The notes: generated from the sequence alone by a model not told the origin. 64,000 bases of DNA from Streptomyces subrutilus (GCF_008704535.1 NZ_CP023701.1:2480001-2544000); one strand, 5' to 3'; positions 25,477 to 31,451 are shown, numbered from the stretch's first letter. Numbers and translations are program-made.

Positions 25477-26907
25477 ATGCGCCGTTCCAAAATCGTCTGC
25501 ACGCTGGGCCCCGCCGTCGACTCGTATGAGCAGCTGAAAGCGCTCATCGAGGCAGGTATGAACGTGGCCCGATTCAACTTCAGCCACGGCTCCCAGGCAG
25601 AGCACCAGGAGCGGTACGACCGCGTCCGGCAGGTGTCCGAGGACACCGGCCGCGCCGTCGGCGTCCTGGCCGACCTCCAGGGCCCGAAGATCCGTCTGGA
25701 GACCTTCGCCGAGGGCCCCGTCGAGCTGGTGCGCGGTGACGAGTTCACCATCACCACCGAGGACGTCCCGGGCGACAAGTCCATCTGCGGCACCACCTAC
25801 AAGGGGCTGCCGGGCGACGTCTCCAAGGGCGACCAGGTCCTGATCAACGACGGCAACGTCGAGCTGCGGGTCGTCGAGATCGAGGGCCCGCGGGTGCGGA
25901 CCATCGTCATCGAGGGCGGTGTCATCTCGGACCACAAGGGCATCAACCTCCCGGGTGCGGCCGTCAACGTCCCCGCCCTGTCGGAGAAGGACGTCGACGA
26001 CCTCCGCTTCGCCCTGCGGATGGGCTGCGACATGGTCGCCCTCTCCTTCGTCCGCGACGCCAACGACGTCAAGGACGTCCACAAGGTCATGGACGAGGAG
26101 GGCCGCCGGGTCCCCGTCATCGCCAAGGTGGAGAAGCCGCAGGCCGTGGCCAACATGGAGGCCGTCGTCGACGCCTTCGACGCGGTCATGGTGGCCCGTG
26201 GCGACCTCGCCGTCGAGTACCCGCTCGAAAAGGTCCCGATGGTCCAGAAGCGGCTCATCGAGATGTGCCGCCGCAACGCCAAGCCGGTGATCGTCGCGAC
26301 CCAGATGATGGAGTCGATGATCACCAACTCGCGCCCGACGCGCGCGGAGGCCTCCGACGTGGCCAACGCGATCCTCGACGGTGCGGACGCGGTCATGCTG
26401 TCGGCCGAGTCCTCGGTCGGCGCCTACCCGATCGAGACCGTCAAGACGATGTCGAAGATCGTCACGGCGGCCGAGGAGGAGCTCCTCTCCAAGGGCCTCC
26501 AGCCGCTCGTCCCGGGCAAGAAGCCGCGCACCCAGGGCGGCGCCGTCGCCCGCGCCGCCTGCGAGATCGCCGACTTCCTCGGCGCCACCGCGCTGGTCGC
26601 CTTCACCCAGTCCGGGGACACCGCCCGCCGGCTCTCGCGCTACCGCGCGAGCCAGCCGATCCTCGCCTTCACCACCGACCCGGGCACCCGCAACCAGCTC
26701 ACCCTGAGCTGGGGCGTCGAGTCGTACGTGGTCCCCCACGTGGACAACACCGACGCCATGGTCGACCTGGTGGACGCGGAGCTCCTCAAGCTCGGCCGCT
26801 ACGGCCAGGGCGACACCATGATCATCACGGCCGGCTCGCCCCCCGGCGTCCCGGGCACCACCAACATGGTCCGGGTCCACCACCTGGGCGGCGACGCGCG
26901 CGCCTGA
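25477..26907 (+). CDS. pyk: Pyruvate kinase
   Basis: The 476-aa enzyme converts phosphoenolpyruvate and ADP to pyruvate and ATP. Signature parts are RRSKIVCTLGPAVDS, GMNVARFNFSHGS, LADLQGPKIRLE, LSEKDVDDLRFAL, the active-site lysine block PVIAKVEKPQAV with MVARGDLAVEYP, and VIVATQMMESMITNSRPTRAEASDVANAILDGADAVMLS. It has its own promoter after ackA and a strong terminator behind it. pfkA, pta, ackA and pyk in one stretch group glycolysis with acetate metabolism. Confidence 0.97.
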   Translation: MRRSKIVCTLGPAVDSYEQLKALIEAGMNVARFNFSHGSQAEHQERYDRVRQVSEDTGRAVGVLADLQGPKIRLETFAEGPVELVRGDEFTITTEDVPGDKSICGTTYKGLPGDVSKGDQVLINDGNVELRVVEIEGPRVRTIVIEGGVISDHKGINLPGAAVNVPALSEKDVDDLRFALRMGCDMVALSFVRDANDVKDVHKVMDEEGRRVPVIAKVEKPQAVANMEAVVDAFDAVMVARGDLAVEYPLEKVPMVQKRLIEMCRRNAKPVIVATQMMESMITNSRPTRAEASDVANAILDGADAVMLSAESSVGAYPIETVKTMSKIVTAAEEELLSKGLQPLVPGKKPRTQGGAVARAACEIADFLGATALVAFTQSGDTARRLSRYRASQPILAFTTDPGTRNQLTLSWGVESYVVPHVDNTDAMVDLVDAELLKLGRYGQGDTMIITAGSPPGVPGTTNMVRVHHLGGDARA

Positions 26908-27085: not shown

Positions 27086-28414
27086 CTACTCCGGCGGCCC
27101 GATGTAGTTCTTGAGGCCCGGGACGGTGAGCGTGCCGCCGAACTGGCCGGCCTGGACGACCTTGACGCTCGTGAAGAACGCGAAGGGGACGTTCAGCGGC
27201 GGCGGGCTGTTCGGGGTGAACTCGATCGGGATCAGCCCGAACAGGTTGCCCTTGAGGCTCTCGGTGTACATCGTCACCGTGCCGCCGCGGATCTTGGACG
27301 TGGAGCCGGGACGGGACTTCAGGTGGGCGACGTTCCCCTCCTTGCCGACCGTCTGGTACAGGTCCTTGATGTCCAGCGAGTCGGCGGTGAACTTGAGGAC
27401 CTTCTTGGTCTTCCCGCCCGCCGTCTTCACCTCCACGATGCCGTGGTAGTCCAGGCCGTAGAGGGTCAGCAGCGAACTGTCCAGGTACCAGGGCTGGTCC
27501 GGCAGGAGCGGGATGCCCTGCTCCAGGTCGGCGTCGGCCAGGGCCTTGGCGTCGTAGGTCGGACAGGGGAAGGGTTCCTTCCCGTCCGCGTCCTTCGTCG
27601 CCTCCGGGTCGGCGGTGGCCTCGTCGTCGCCCTCGTCCTCGTCCCCGGCCGCCGGGTCGGCCTTCGGGTCGGTCTTCGGATTCTCCTCGCCCTTGGCGCC
27701 CGTCTCGTCCTTCGGGTTCTTCTCGGTGTCCTTGACCTCGTCGGACAGCTCCTCGACCTCGGCTCCGGCCCGCTTGGCAGCGTCGCGGATCGCGTCCGCC
27801 GCCGGGTCCGGGGTCTTCGAGGTGCTCGGCGTGGGGGTCGGGGCGGGCGTCCGGTCCGCCTTCTCCCGGGCCTCCCGCAGCGGCCTGCCGAGCTCGTCGA
27901 AGAACGCGCCGATCTTGTCGCCGACGCCCAACGGGTCCAGCGGGTCGGCCGGTTTGGTCGGCTTGGCCGTCGAGGGGGCGGCCGCCGGTTTCGTCTTCCC
28001 GTTCCCGGCCGGGGCGGACGTGTCCGCCGCGGGCGAGGGGCTGGTGCCCGCCCCGGGCTTGGCCTTGGGCTGCACGGACGTGGACGCGGAGGGCGAGGGG
28101 CTCGCGCTCGGCGAGGTGCTGGGCGACGGCGTCTTCGAGGGGGACGGCGACGGGGACTGCGCCGGCTCGTCGGACCGCGTCACGCACGGACCGGGAGCGA
28201 AGGGGATCTCCTTGTCGTCGGCCGCCGCCAGCTTCGGCGCCATGCCCATCCCGACGAACACGGCGGTCGGCATGGCCGCCAGCGCCATCGTCTTGCCGAC
28301 GGGTATCTGCAACTTGTTCAGCAGCGACTTCCTGGGCGCCGCGTGCCGCGGACCCTTGCTCTCACGGGACTCTGCGCTGGGGGCCGCGCCCCGCTGCGTC
28401 TCGTCACCCCGCAC
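27086..28414 (-). CDS. Membrane-anchored or exported Pro/Ser/Thr-rich protein, third gene of the DUF6230 module
   Basis: GTG 28414 is chosen because GGGAGGA stands four bases upstream; ATG 28429 has no such site. The start overlaps the end of the DUF6114 gene. The 442-aa product has a basic N-terminus (RKSLLNKLQIPVGK), one hydrophobic segment (about 43-65, MALAAMPTAVFVGMGMAP) that may be a signal or anchor, then a SPSPSPSKTPS-type linker, an acidic stretch rich in Asp/Glu (about 190-265) and a C-terminal folded domain (about 270-442) starting PCPTYDAKALADADL. By eye the last domain shares a pattern of an ADxLD motif and Gly/Pro-rich beta strands with DUF6230. Function unknown. The linker suggests the last domain is displayed at the cell surface. 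Confidence 0.65.
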   Translation of the reverse strand: MRGDETQRGAAPSAESRESKGPRHAAPRKSLLNKLQIPVGKTMALAAMPTAVFVGMGMAPKLAAADDKEIPFAPGPCVTRSDEPAQSPSPSPSKTPSPSTSPSASPSPSASTSVQPKAKPGAGTSPSPAADTSAPAGNGKTKPAAAPSTAKPTKPADPLDPLGVGDKIGAFFDELGRPLREAREKADRTPAPTPTPSTSKTPDPAADAIRDAAKRAGAEVEELSDEVKDTEKNPKDETGAKGEENPKTDPKADPAAGDEDEGDDEATADPEATKDADGKEPFPCPTYDAKALADADLEQGIPLLPDQPWYLDSSLLTLYGLDYHGIVEVKTAGGKTKKVLKFTADSLDIKDLYQTVGKEGNVAHLKSRPGSTSKIRGGTVTMYTESLKGNLFGLIPIEFTPNSPPPLNVPFAFFTSVKVVQAGQFGGTLTVPGLKNYIGPPE

Positions 28415-28970
28415 TGTTCCTCCCGCCATCGGCGTGGGCAGTCGTCTCGCTCGCGTGTGCCGTTTCCGTCTCACGGGGACCCGGGATGCCCTGGGGGCCC
28501 GCCGGCGCTTCCGTCTTCCCCGCGTACGCGGGATACCCGTCCGCCGGGGCTTCCGCGGCCGGCTGCCCGGGCACCCAGGCCAGCGCGAGGGCGCCGCCGA
28601 TGAGCGAGAGGGTGAAGCCGATGAAGAAGCCGCCGAGGTTGGAGACCGGGAGGGACACCAGGGCCAGCAGGATCGCGGCGACTCCCGCGAAGACCCGGAT
28701 GGCCTGCTGGAACCAGAGGGCCAGGCCCAGCGTGATCAGCAGGACACCGATGATCAGTGCGCCCGCGCCGCCGGTGGTGGCCATGGCGAGGCTGATGTTT
28801 CCCAGGCGCAGGTCCGCGTACGGGAAGTACGCGATCGGGAAGCCGCCGAGGAGCGTGAACAGCCCGGCCCAGAAAGGACGGCGACCGCTCCAGGCGTGGA
28901 AGTGGTAGTACACCACGGTCAGCCAGGCGTCGTCTTCGGCGCGAACGTAAACCGGGGCCTGGGGGTTCAT
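28404..28970 (-). CDS. DUF6114 family integral membrane protein
   Basis: ATG 28970 (MNPQAPVYVRAEDDAW) has GGGAG nine bases upstream; 188 aa. After a polar N-terminus (HAWSGRRPFW) there are about four hydrophobic helices: FWAGLFTLLGGFPIAYF, AGALIIGVLLITLGLALWF, FAGVAAILLALVSLP and GFFIGFTLSLIGGALALAW. A Pro/Ala/Glu-rich cytoplasmic or external tail ends the protein. It lies between the DUF6230 gene (114 bp upstream) and the anchored protein gene (overlapping), an arrangement I recall from other streptomycetes. No enzymatic motif is visible. It could be a membrane partner that holds or exports the other two proteins. Confidence 0.8.
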   Translation of the reverse strand: MNPQAPVYVRAEDDAWLTVVYYHFHAWSGRRPFWAGLFTLLGGFPIAYFPYADLRLGNISLAMATTGGAGALIIGVLLITLGLALWFQQAIRVFAGVAAILLALVSLPVSNLGGFFIGFTLSLIGGALALAWVPGQPAAEAPADGYPAYAGKTEAPAGPQGIPGPRETETAHASETTAHADGGRNSAG

Positions 28971-29023
28971 GGACAACAGCTCCCTGGAAACGGTGGTACT
29001 GGAGAACTCTGTGGAGCCCGGGA

Positions 29024-29061
29024 GGGCGGGCGGCGGCAACGGCTGCCACCGCCGCCCGCCC
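29024..29061 (-). terminator. Intra-operon terminator or attenuator after the DUF6230 gene
   Basis: GGGCGGGCGGCGG (29024-29036) pairs perfectly over 13 bp with CCGCCGCCCGCCC (29049-29061), with a 12-base loop. It lies between the DUF6230 and DUF6114 genes on the same strand and would lower expression of the two downstream membrane proteins. Confidence 0.65.
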
Positions 29062-29084
29062 CACCGGTCAGGCGCCGGGACGGA

Positions 29085-29723
29085 CTACTTCTCGTCCTGG
29101 TAGCACGGCTGGTCGCCACCGAGCAGGCGCAGCTTCAGGTCGGGCAGCTTGAAGGTGCCCGCCGTGGTCGCCCACGCCTTCTGCCGGACGTTCGACAGGA
29201 TGGCCTTGTCCGCACGCTGGGAGAACGCGTACGGGCTGGCGACCGTACCGGCCTGCGGCTTGGTCTTGTGGCTGGGGTCGCCGACCGCGACACCGATGTC
29301 GAGGTTCTTGAACTCGGCGTCGGTGTCGAGCTCCGCAACATCGAGGTAGATGTTGTCGGCGACGGCCGGCTTGCCCTTGTGACCCGTACGCAGCTGGAGC
29401 GTGATGTTGCCCAGCGGGGTCGGGGTGACCAGGGACTGGCACATGTTGGTGATCTCGGCGTGGCTGAACCCGGAGATGGTGACCGGGTGGGCCGCCGCGT
29501 TCCCCTTGAGGTCGTGCCCCTCGGCGATCCCGCCGTACTGGATGAGGTTGTCACCGTCGAGCTTGTCGGCCGAGACCTTGAAGTCCTGGCCGGAGACGCT
29601 GAAGGACGCCGCGAGGGCACCCTGCGCCAGACCCACACCGACCGCGGCCGTGGCCGCGATGCTCGGCACCATGACGAGCGCGAAGCGCTTCCATCTGGTC
29701 CCGCCACGAACCTGAGAACTCAT
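29085..29723 (-). CDS. DUF6230 family secreted or surface protein
   Basis: ATG 29723 has a very strong ribosome site (GAAGGAGG), the best in the window, suggesting high expression. The 212-aa protein has a basic N-terminus (RGGTRWKRFALV), one hydrophobic signal segment (MVPSIAATAAVGVGLAQGALA) with a likely cut before SFSVSG, and a beta-rich mature part with two cysteines (NMCQSL and DQPCYQDEK) that may form a disulfide. No catalytic motif is visible. Some relatives carry an old cholesterol esterase label, for which I see no support. It is the first gene of a three-gene module and follows an unusually dense regulatory region. Confidence 0.8.
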   Translation of the reverse strand: MSSQVRGGTRWKRFALVMVPSIAATAAVGVGLAQGALAASFSVSGQDFKVSADKLDGDNLIQYGGIAEGHDLKGNAAAHPVTISGFSHAEITNMCQSLVTPTPLGNITLQLRTGHKGKPAVADNIYLDVAELDTDAEFKNLDIGVAVGDPSHKTKPQAGTVASPYAFSQRADKAILSNVRQKAWATTAGTFKLPDLKLRLLGGDQPCYQDEK

Positions 29724-30277
29724 ATCGTTCCTCCTTCTCGGACGTACATCTCCGGTCCGGGCCGTACCCGTCCTGGGATGGGAGAAGTGCTACGTCCTCG
29801 GGAAGGAGCGCAGGCGGCCCGGGCCGCGGTCGTGCCACGTCCGATCCACCGGCGATCACCCCCGAGCGACAACCACTGGGCCACGCGTTCGCGCAACCTG
29901 AGAGGACAGGCCCCGCTGTACGGCGGAGACCCCCCTGTCCCACGACCGGTGCCACTGCCACCGACCGGCCCGGTGGGGACCCTCCACCGCGGCTCCGGAT
30001 GAGCGGCTCTGCGGGAAGGACCGAGCGTCGCCGATCGTGGTCCATTCCCGGCCGGGGCACAAGGGGGTTCGTTACTGGCGGGTAACGGCCAGATAACCGG
30101 GGGCCGACCCAGTGGCGTCGGGCAGCGACACACGGTGTCACCAATGGCCACGACAGATCAGGGGAAGTGTGAACACACCGGACAGTTCACGGGGTTCGGT
30201 TTACTGCGAGTAACAGCAGCCGCAATTACCAAGTTTTGGCAAAGTGCGGCCGCTGTTTATCTCCGTGACAACAAATC
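29724..30277 (-). promoter_or_regulatory. Upstream region of the DUF6230 operon with several dyads
   Basis: About 550 bp without a gene and with lower GC than its surroundings, especially 30150-30277. It contains GTTACTGGCGGGTAAC (30071-30086), GTGTGAACACAC (30167-30178), GTGAAC/GTTCAC arms (30169-30174 and 30185-30190) and TTACTGCGAGTAA (30201-30213). The last fits the half-site pattern TNAC-N5-GTNA of the developmental regulator BldD; the first has the same half-sites one base further apart. A developmentally controlled promoter is plausible; the transcription start could not be placed. Confidence 0.5.
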
Positions 30278-30320: not shown

Positions 30321-31322
30321 CTAGAAGAGGACCCGGGCCAGTGCCGTGCGCGCCGCGGAGACCCGCGGGTCGTCCGCGCCGATGACCTCGAACAGCTCCA
30401 GCAGGCGCACCCGAACGGCGTCGCGGTCCTCACCGAACGTCACCCGCACGGTGTCCACCAGGCGCCCGAAGGCGTCCTCCACGTGACCGCCGACCAGGTC
30501 CAGGTCGGCGGCGGCGATCTGCGCCGCCGGGTCGCGCGGGTCGGCGGCCGCCGCGGCCCGCACCGCCTGCGGGTCCATGTCCCGGACGCGGACGAGGAGT
30601 TCGGCCTGGGCCAGCCCCAGCGAGGCCTCGCTGTTGCGCGGGTCCTCGGACAGCACGTTCTTGTACGCCTGGACGGCGCCGGCCAGGTCGCCCGCGTCGA
30701 GCGCGACCACGGCCGCCTCCAGCAGGGCGTCGTGCGGGCCGGCCGGGGGCTCGGCCGCGGCGTCCGCCGCGGGGGCGCCCTCGGCGTCCGGGTCCACCTC
30801 GACGCCGATGATCCCGAAGCGCTCCTCGGCCACCTGGACCAGCTGCGCGAGGGTCTCGCGGATCTGCTGCTCGGGGGCCGCGCCCTGGAACAGCGGCAGC
30901 GCCTGGCCGGCGACCACGGCGAAGACCGCGGGAATGCCCTGGATGCCGAACTGCTGCATGAGCATCTGGTTGGCGTCGACGTCGACCTTGGCGAGCACGA
31001 GGCGGCCGTTGGCCTCGATGGTCAGCCGCTCCAGGAGCGGACTGAGCTGCTTGCACGGTTCGCACCACTCGGCCCAGAAGTCCAGGACGACCGGGACCTC
31101 GGCGGAGAGCTGGATGACGTCGCGTTCAAAACCGGCCTCGTCGACGTCGATGACGAGGGCGGACGGCGGCAGTGCGCCGGCGGACGGGCCTGCGCCGCCG
31201 CCCTGGGCGGCCTGGCGCGCCGCGTCGGCGCGGGCCTGCTCGGCCTTGGCCTTGGCCTCGCCGGCCGCCTTCACCGCGGCGAGGTCGACGACGCCGCTCA
31301 TGGACATGTTTCTGGGCTGCAT
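30321..31322 (-). CDS. CnoX/YbbN-like thioredoxin-TPR protein
   Basis: ATG 31322 has GGGGGAGGA seven to eight bases upstream; 333 aa. An Ala/Lys/Gln-rich helical leader (about 10-45) precedes a thioredoxin domain (about 55-165) with VVLDFWAEWCEPCKQLSPLL and cis-Pro region GIQGIPAVFAVVAGQ, then C-terminal TPR-like helices (about 195-333; DAGDLAGAVQAYKNVLSEDPRNSEA). This is the layout of the co-chaperone CnoX, which protects substrates from oxidation and hands them to chaperonins. Unlike the enterobacterial SXXC form, both cysteines are present (CEPC), so it may have redox activity. It is divergent from the tetR gene. Confidence 0.88.
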   Translation of the reverse strand: MQPRNMSMSGVVDLAAVKAAGEAKAKAEQARADAARQAAQGGGAGPSAGALPPSALVIDVDEAGFERDVIQLSAEVPVVLDFWAEWCEPCKQLSPLLERLTIEANGRLVLAKVDVDANQMLMQQFGIQGIPAVFAVVAGQALPLFQGAAPEQQIRETLAQLVQVAEERFGIIGVEVDPDAEGAPAADAAAEPPAGPHDALLEAAVVALDAGDLAGAVQAYKNVLSEDPRNSEASLGLAQAELLVRVRDMDPQAVRAAAAADPRDPAAQIAAADLDLVGGHVEDAFGRLVDTVRVTFGEDRDAVRVRLLELFEVIGADDPRVSAARTALARVLF

Positions 31323-31451
31323 GCGTACATCCTCCCCCGTGCGTGCGCGCCGACGAAAAAGATCGGGTGAATTCACGCCTCACCGCGATCGCCGTACGGT
31401 CGGCGCCGGGTCCCCACCTGGCGCCTGTAGCCCTTCGCGTGGTTGTCGCTC

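Follow-up and report, generated by a model that had tools for sequence, protein, structure and literature searches.

Three adjacent genes of Streptomyces subrutilus, coding for a DUF6230 protein, a DUF6114 protein and an anchored third protein, share a conserved operator with fatty acid degradation genes, a regulon link read from sequence patterns. This shared palindrome is the strongest clue to the function of the trio and is independent of protein chemistry. We propose, with moderate confidence, that the trio is an extracytoplasmic module of the fatty acid degradation regulon for the capture and handover of lipids or lipid esters, possibly with hydrolysis, the biochemical step being the part that we infer. 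The original prediction for this DNA had presented the genes as its best candidate for an undescribed system, of no known function. The latter statement can be amended, as gene 1 apparently corresponds to the Tween-induced "cholesterol esterase" SCO5420 and the operator groups the trio with fatty acid degradation. The former overlooked SCO5420, the Rfam che1 RNA in the leader and the fatty acid operator; the families are already known, and it is the three-gene system itself that is undescribed.

Organization of the three genes

The trio occupies positions 27086 to 29723 on the minus strand of the window (the whole 64-kb stretch of DNA analyzed), which comes from a Streptomyces-type chromosome of 7.6 Mb in a single contig. 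It is flanked by pyk, ending at 26907, and by a thioredoxin-like gene at 30321 to 31376. The first gene (29085 to 29723, minus strand) encodes a 212-amino-acid protein, predicted to be all-beta and secreted or membrane attached, with a single, N-terminal hydrophobic stretch. It matched PF19741 over positions 1 to 145 of the 145-position profile (167.3 bits against a cutoff of 27.5; E value, 3.4e−49) and is thus a DUF6230 member. The second gene (28404 to 28970, minus strand) encodes 188 amino acids and aligned with positions 1 to 105 of 106 in PF19609 (113 bits against a cutoff of 27.9; E value, 1.3e−32), making it a DUF6114 member; about four hydrophobic stretches, the last two merging, predict a four-helix membrane protein.

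For the third gene, the longest open reading frame spans 27086 to 28474. The GTG at 28414 was taken as its start because it is preceded by GGAGGAACA and gives an overlap of 11 nt with the end of the DUF6114 gene, the most frequent overlap between these two genes across 79 orthologous loci. The gene then covers 27086 to 28414 (minus strand) and encodes 442 amino acids. Composition and hydropathy divide the protein into a basic N terminus, one membrane or signal segment at approximately residues 39 to 59, a Pro/Ser-rich (SPSP) linker (27965 to 28180, minus strand), an acidic spacer in which 28 of the 85 residues are Asp or Glu (27560 to 27814, minus strand) and an end domain (27089 to 27577, minus strand). 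These features agree with the original prediction, which had placed DUF6230, DUF6114 and a 442-amino-acid protein here and had described a signal-type segment, four helices and one anchor, followed in the third protein by the same linker, acidic spacer and C-terminal domain. Judging from the signal and anchor segments, the beta domains of DUF6230 and of the third protein are probably extracytoplasmic. The DUF6230 gene had also been credited with the strongest ribosome site in the window. The site, AAGGAGG at 29730 to 29736 (minus strand), is indeed strong and lies 6 nt 5′ of the ATG at 29723, but it is one of two AAGGAGG-type sites found ahead of open reading frames of at least 100 amino acids in the window.

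Conservation, second copies and fusions

A single scan of 84,980 species genomes retained 80 loci with DUF6230; their titles name Streptomyces, with the exception of one "Actinobacteria bacterium." DUF6230, DUF6114 and the third gene were together in 79 of 79 complete loci, the 80th ending too early on its contig, and this retention excludes a chance arrangement. All 80 loci had the thioredoxin-like gene and 67 had pyk; contig ends cut several of the remaining loci short. In 198 evenly sampled Actinomycetes genomes, DUF6230 scored above the cutoff in 38 and DUF6114 in 37; the two sets of genomes were identical except for one genome, in which DUF6230 is on a contig of 16 kb. The DUF6230-DUF6114 pair also occurs in a lineage of the same phylum, outside the class, with genomes of ∼3 Mb, and distant copies without annotation were matched in a plasmid collection.

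A second copy in the same S. subrutilus genome, at 6.155 Mb, has DUF6114 fused to the end domain typical of gene 3 and is adjoined by an acyl-CoA dehydrogenase gene. The same fusion was seen in many genomes of other families (L041 to L043, L045, L046, L049 to L052 and L054), and it links DUF6114 and the end domain in a single task. With the 79 complete loci and the co-occurrence in 37 of 38 genomes, these fusions bear out the linkage on which the original prediction had relied. At the distant loci L035 to L037, the gene order is DUF6230, DUF6114, DUF6230, DUF6114 and a long DUF6230. Other copies adjoin an acyl-CoA ligase gene (L048) or a squalene/phytoene synthase gene (L040).

Several further observations were made around these copies. 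At L040 (6748 to 10652), a third type of DUF6230-DUF6114 pair lies directly 5′ of the squalene/phytoene synthase gene, which encodes a fusion with a domain of the undecaprenyl diphosphate synthase type; the pair also adjoins an MpaB/rubber oxygenase-type gene. Secreted proteins of ∼220 amino acids with no Pfam family are encoded near second copies at L056 (9055 to 9696), L058 (6451 to 7116) and L047 (9489 to 10283); they are alike in build and perhaps also resemble a secreted protein at L158. The DUF6230-DUF6114 pair of another lineage of actinobacteria is adjoined by a transglycosylase/M23 peptidase protein (L215, 3221 to 5752, minus strand; L217, 9721 to 12558, plus strand) with an N-terminal stretch that is weakly DUF6230-like (E values, 0.004 and 0.12 with our own profile; 0.18 with Pfam for L215).

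Remote homology between the end domain and DUF6230

No family was matched when the third protein was searched against Pfam and NCBIfam, and the end domain is therefore classed as a remote homologue rather than a Pfam DUF6230 member; the third-position genes at L036 and L037, however, do exceed the Pfam DUF6230 cutoff. With narrow Streptomyces alignments, hhalign paired only the last strand pair of the two domains (E value, 0.037), so wider sequence sampling was needed. The narrow profile set gave a match to DUF6230 that was collinear across the whole domain (E value, 0.0011), and the wide set gave an hhalign score of 28.8 over 130 columns (E value, 0.00046); none of 200 column shuffles scored above 19.6, and a reversed profile scored 12.1. 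AlphaFold2 models of DUF6230 (pLDDT 85.8) and of the end domain (pLDDT 90.3) were both all-beta. Compared by strand order under the profile alignment, not by superposed coordinates, their long strands follow in the paired order (23, 20 and 20 residues versus 23, 12 and 17), and two short strands come after them. The collinear profile alignment and the modeled strand order place the end domain in the DUF6230 superfamily as a remote homologue. The suggestion that it repeats the DUF6230 strand pattern was accordingly upheld, and neither an unrelated end domain fold nor unlinked genes in other genomes came to light.

Fold prediction and search, which the original prediction had recommended, yielded this common strand order but no match to a solved structure. 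Foldseek against the PDB returned nothing at an E value of ≤0.001 for either model, with top TM scores of about 0.1 to 0.2, and against BFVD the end domain model had no match. Gene 1 and the profiles, used as queries against the sequences of solved structures, gave nothing above chance, and no lipid-binding relative was among the fold matches listed for the two models. An LptA/OstA-like beta-taco, considered on account of the long strands and "ADxL" motifs, was dropped because no such structure was among the 50 PDB matches listed per model and because of these low top TM scores.

An operator shared with fatty acid degradation genes

A predicted palindromic operator, GTTACCCGCCAGTAAC, is located at 30071 to 30086, ∼350 nt 5′ of the DUF6230 start and at the far end of the leader. 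The palindrome GTTACYNGYNRGTAAC was present in 81 of 81 Streptomyces loci (73 exact, 7 with one mismatch and 1 with two). At 23 second-copy or non-Streptomyces DUF6230 loci, it was found within 600 nt upstream, with no more than one mismatch, in 8 and was absent in 15; dinucleotide shuffles of these loci gave a mean of 0.08 palindromes and never more than 1. The SCO3201 site, TGGCAGATTCTGCCA, was also considered and is different from GTTACYNGYNRGTAAC.

The regulon was read from pattern searches for the palindrome in genomes, and flanking genes were annotated at palindrome sites. A control pattern had 1 forward and 0 reverse occurrences in the S. subrutilus genome at ≤1 mismatch. At the same threshold, palindrome sites in this genome precede the operon itself and genes for a thiolase (L159), an acyl-CoA ligase (L161) and an acyl-CoA dehydrogenase (L162); others are at an aldehyde dehydrogenase gene (L160) and at a secreted-protein/DUF6801 locus (L158). 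Sites with two mismatches include those at an enoyl-CoA hydratase gene (L171) and a zinc-dehydrogenase-type, ccr-like gene (L166). When the one-mismatch sites of two further genomes were read without selection, thiolase (L194 and L211), acyl-CoA dehydrogenase (L195, L197 and L207) and aldehyde dehydrogenase (L199 and L209) recurred, with acyl-CoA ligase (L206) behind the palindrome in one of the two; several other sites had unrelated neighbors. The promoter of the SCO6027-type thiolase answers to oleic acid (PMC5539140).

Genes for further secreted proteins that lack a known function also have the palindrome in front of them (L158, 1298 to 3015, the locus that includes DUF6801; L212, 1623 to 2630), and the fatty acid regulon may thus hold more exported proteins of this sort. 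Separately, genes for secreted alpha/beta hydrolases resembling Peptidase_S15 have a related GTTAC...GTAAC palindrome upstream (L156, 1598 to 3016; L193, 1614 to 2999); at L156, a TetR-type gene is divergent from the hydrolase gene.

The leader and its che1 RNA

A predicted noncoding leader of ∼350 nt (29724 to 30070, minus strand) precedes the DUF6230 gene and contains several blocks that are near invariant in 81 Streptomyces loci. Within it, positions 29850 to 29941 (minus strand) match the che1 RNA of Rfam (RF02935) over model positions 1 to 91 of 91 (93.6 bits against a gathering score of 54.1; E value, 1.9e−14), and conserved blocks reach well past the model on both sides. Minimum free energy folding of the whole leader was no better than that of shuffles (z = −1.05), and the case for the leader therefore rests on the Rfam match and on conservation. 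Matches to mir-194 in the same scan fell far under the gathering score and were ignored. che1 was sought at nine second-copy or non-Streptomyces loci and not found there. In S. lividans, it has been placed before SLIV_11405 under the heading of cholesterol metabolism (PMC8079986), and its function has been called unknown (PMC11678152). Near the 3′ end of the leader, two invariant blocks, CTCCTTC and CTTCTCCC, show complementarity to GAGAAGGAGG at the ribosome site, and their pairing with it would make a putative translational switch.

The first gene and the "cholesterol esterase" name

In S. coelicolor, SCO5420 is named a cholesterol esterase and is raised almost 37-fold by Tween, and pyk2 is SCO5423 (PMC7494193). 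Exactly two genes fit between these numbers, as they do here, and we therefore infer from gene order and numbering that the trio is the counterpart of SCO5420 to SCO5422, with gene 1 equivalent to SCO5420. The title of a 2007 report by Xiang et al., which PMC4098958 and PMC3514274 cite, announces a novel family of actinomycete cholesterol esterases. Gene 1 is a putative member of that family, tied to it through the annotation of SCO5420. The chromosomal S. lavendulae orthologue of gene 1 is 81% identical, and proteins named cholesterol esterase are listed in the published proteomes of S. scabiei and SirexAA-E. A literature search for SCO5421, SCO5422 and DUF6114 found no mention of them, nor any direct report on the biochemistry or phenotype of DUF6114 or the third protein.

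Among 47 diverse DUF6230 domains, only two Cys (94 to 96%), two Ser (87% and 77%) and one Asp (81%) are conserved at ≥70%, with no His and no Ser-His-Asp triad among the conserved residues; canonical esterase chemistry is thus unlikely. The all-beta model, which had no fold match, also differs from the alpha/beta hydrolase fold. Cys95 and Cys207 are invariant in a 20-sequence DUF6230 alignment, which suggests a disulfide between them.

Proposed role and alternatives

Sequence supplies the three genes with their linkage and fusions, the homology between the two domains, their predicted fold, che1 and the operator common to fad genes. To these the model adds, as presumptions, that the proteins are exported with the given topology and form a complex, what the ligand is, whether it is hydrolyzed, which way it is transported and what regulates the genes. 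The shared operator, the Tween response, the neighboring lipid genes and the probably extracytoplasmic beta domains argue for lipid handling outside the membrane and, with the usual esterase route unlikely, for capture and handover with possible hydrolysis. The operon would then be the extracytoplasmic arm of the actinobacterial fatty acid degradation regulon. In this model, GTTACYNGYNRGTAAC would be occupied by a repressor, probably a TetR-type protein responsive to acyl-CoA, that is released when fatty acids are present, with the che1 leader RNA probably a second, posttranscriptional layer of control. Outside the membrane, secreted DUF6230 would bind free acyl chains or lipid esters, perhaps with hydrolysis, and DUF6114 with the anchored third protein would act as a membrane-side receptor that takes over the lipid. 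The third protein would present a second DUF6230-like domain on its Pro/Ser and acidic stalk, an arrangement replaced in other genera by direct fusion to DUF6114, and the receptor would pass the lipid on to FadD and beta-oxidation. Several points count against this proposal: the palindrome is absent within 600 nt upstream at 15 of the 23 second-copy or non-Streptomyces loci, several one-mismatch sites in other genomes have unrelated neighbors, and the fold searches gave no lipid-binding relative. Moreover, Tween is both a detergent and a fatty acid source, so the induction of SCO5420 could be a stress response. An extended reading, which we regard as doubtful, is that DUF6230 and its anchored relative represent a new nonenzymatic lipid carrier fold that forms with DUF6114 a hitherto unrecognized fatty acid or sterol ester uptake machine of monoderm actinobacteria, with che1 as a riboswitch or leader sensing the acyl-lipid supply.

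DUF6230 might instead act on its own as a new kind of secreted lipid esterase, with DUF6114 and the third protein serving only to help it through the envelope or retain it at the surface. The name and Tween induction of SCO5420, the title of the 2007 report and the so-named proteins of the two proteomes speak for it, yet the lack of a conserved His in the 47 domains and the all-beta model do not, and an end domain that repeats the DUF6230 fold is needless in an accessory protein; we consider this unlikely. A role in protecting the envelope, by binding or removing membrane-damaging free fatty acids or detergent during lipid feeding rather than by taking lipid up, would also be served by this regulation. 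Suberin lipid monomers have been discussed as membrane perturbants in Streptomyces (PMC4098958), and DUF6114, a small membrane protein, has no transporter signatures. Nothing positive for efflux or tolerance was found, however, and the coregulated genes are catabolic, with no efflux gene among the annotated palindrome sites, which leaves protection with a low probability.

The original prediction had the three proteins act together at the cell surface and proposed a study of the spore and hyphal surface, and the trio could be coat parts that alter wettability without handling lipid. Secreted and anchored proteins, a long stalk and a duplicated beta domain would suit such parts. Against this, the DUF6230-DUF6114 unit extends to the ∼3-Mb lineage outside the class, the regulatory site is the fatty acid one, and the neighbors pyk, ack and trx give no developmental link. 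No support for a spore or hyphal coat role was found; the evidence favors lipid use, and a coat is very improbable.

Capture and handover of lipids thus stands as our preferred reading. Lipid delivery to the cell is poorly described in these bacteria, and according to a 2017 paper, neither the genes by which they catabolize triacylglycerol and fatty acids nor the signals regulating this had been described (PMC5539140). The trio is kept throughout the sampled Streptomyces, and at its head are che1, an Rfam RNA whose function has been called unknown, and a "cholesterol esterase" lacking the esterase triad; a lipid uptake role, if true, would give a role to che1 and to an all-beta fold without a solved counterpart. 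The operator makes the trio testable by supplying a growth condition (long-chain fatty acids or Tween), a regulon and a phenotype.

Comparison with known systems

LptA/OstA- and TULIP-type lipid shuttles are extracytoplasmic beta proteins with long strands and offer a comparison of working principle only; no such structure was among the fold matches listed, and a match to LolA3 had a TM score of 0.10. Genes 1 and 2 are clear members of Pfam DUF6230 (PF19741) and DUF6114 (PF19609), whereas the gene 3 end domain is missed by the Pfam model. che1 (RF02935) is matched at full length, and the conserved leader blocks exceed the Rfam model on both sides. By gene order, gene 1 matches SCO5420, which carries the name of the actinomycete cholesterol esterase family; the literature treats a single enzyme, while here two further genes are linked to it and bring in a membrane partner and another DUF6230-like domain. 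Like the trio, fadAB_1 (SCO6027-SCO6026) and other beta-oxidation genes of S. coelicolor have the palindromic site upstream, but they encode cytoplasmic enzymes, whereas the trio is predicted to supply exported and membrane proteins.
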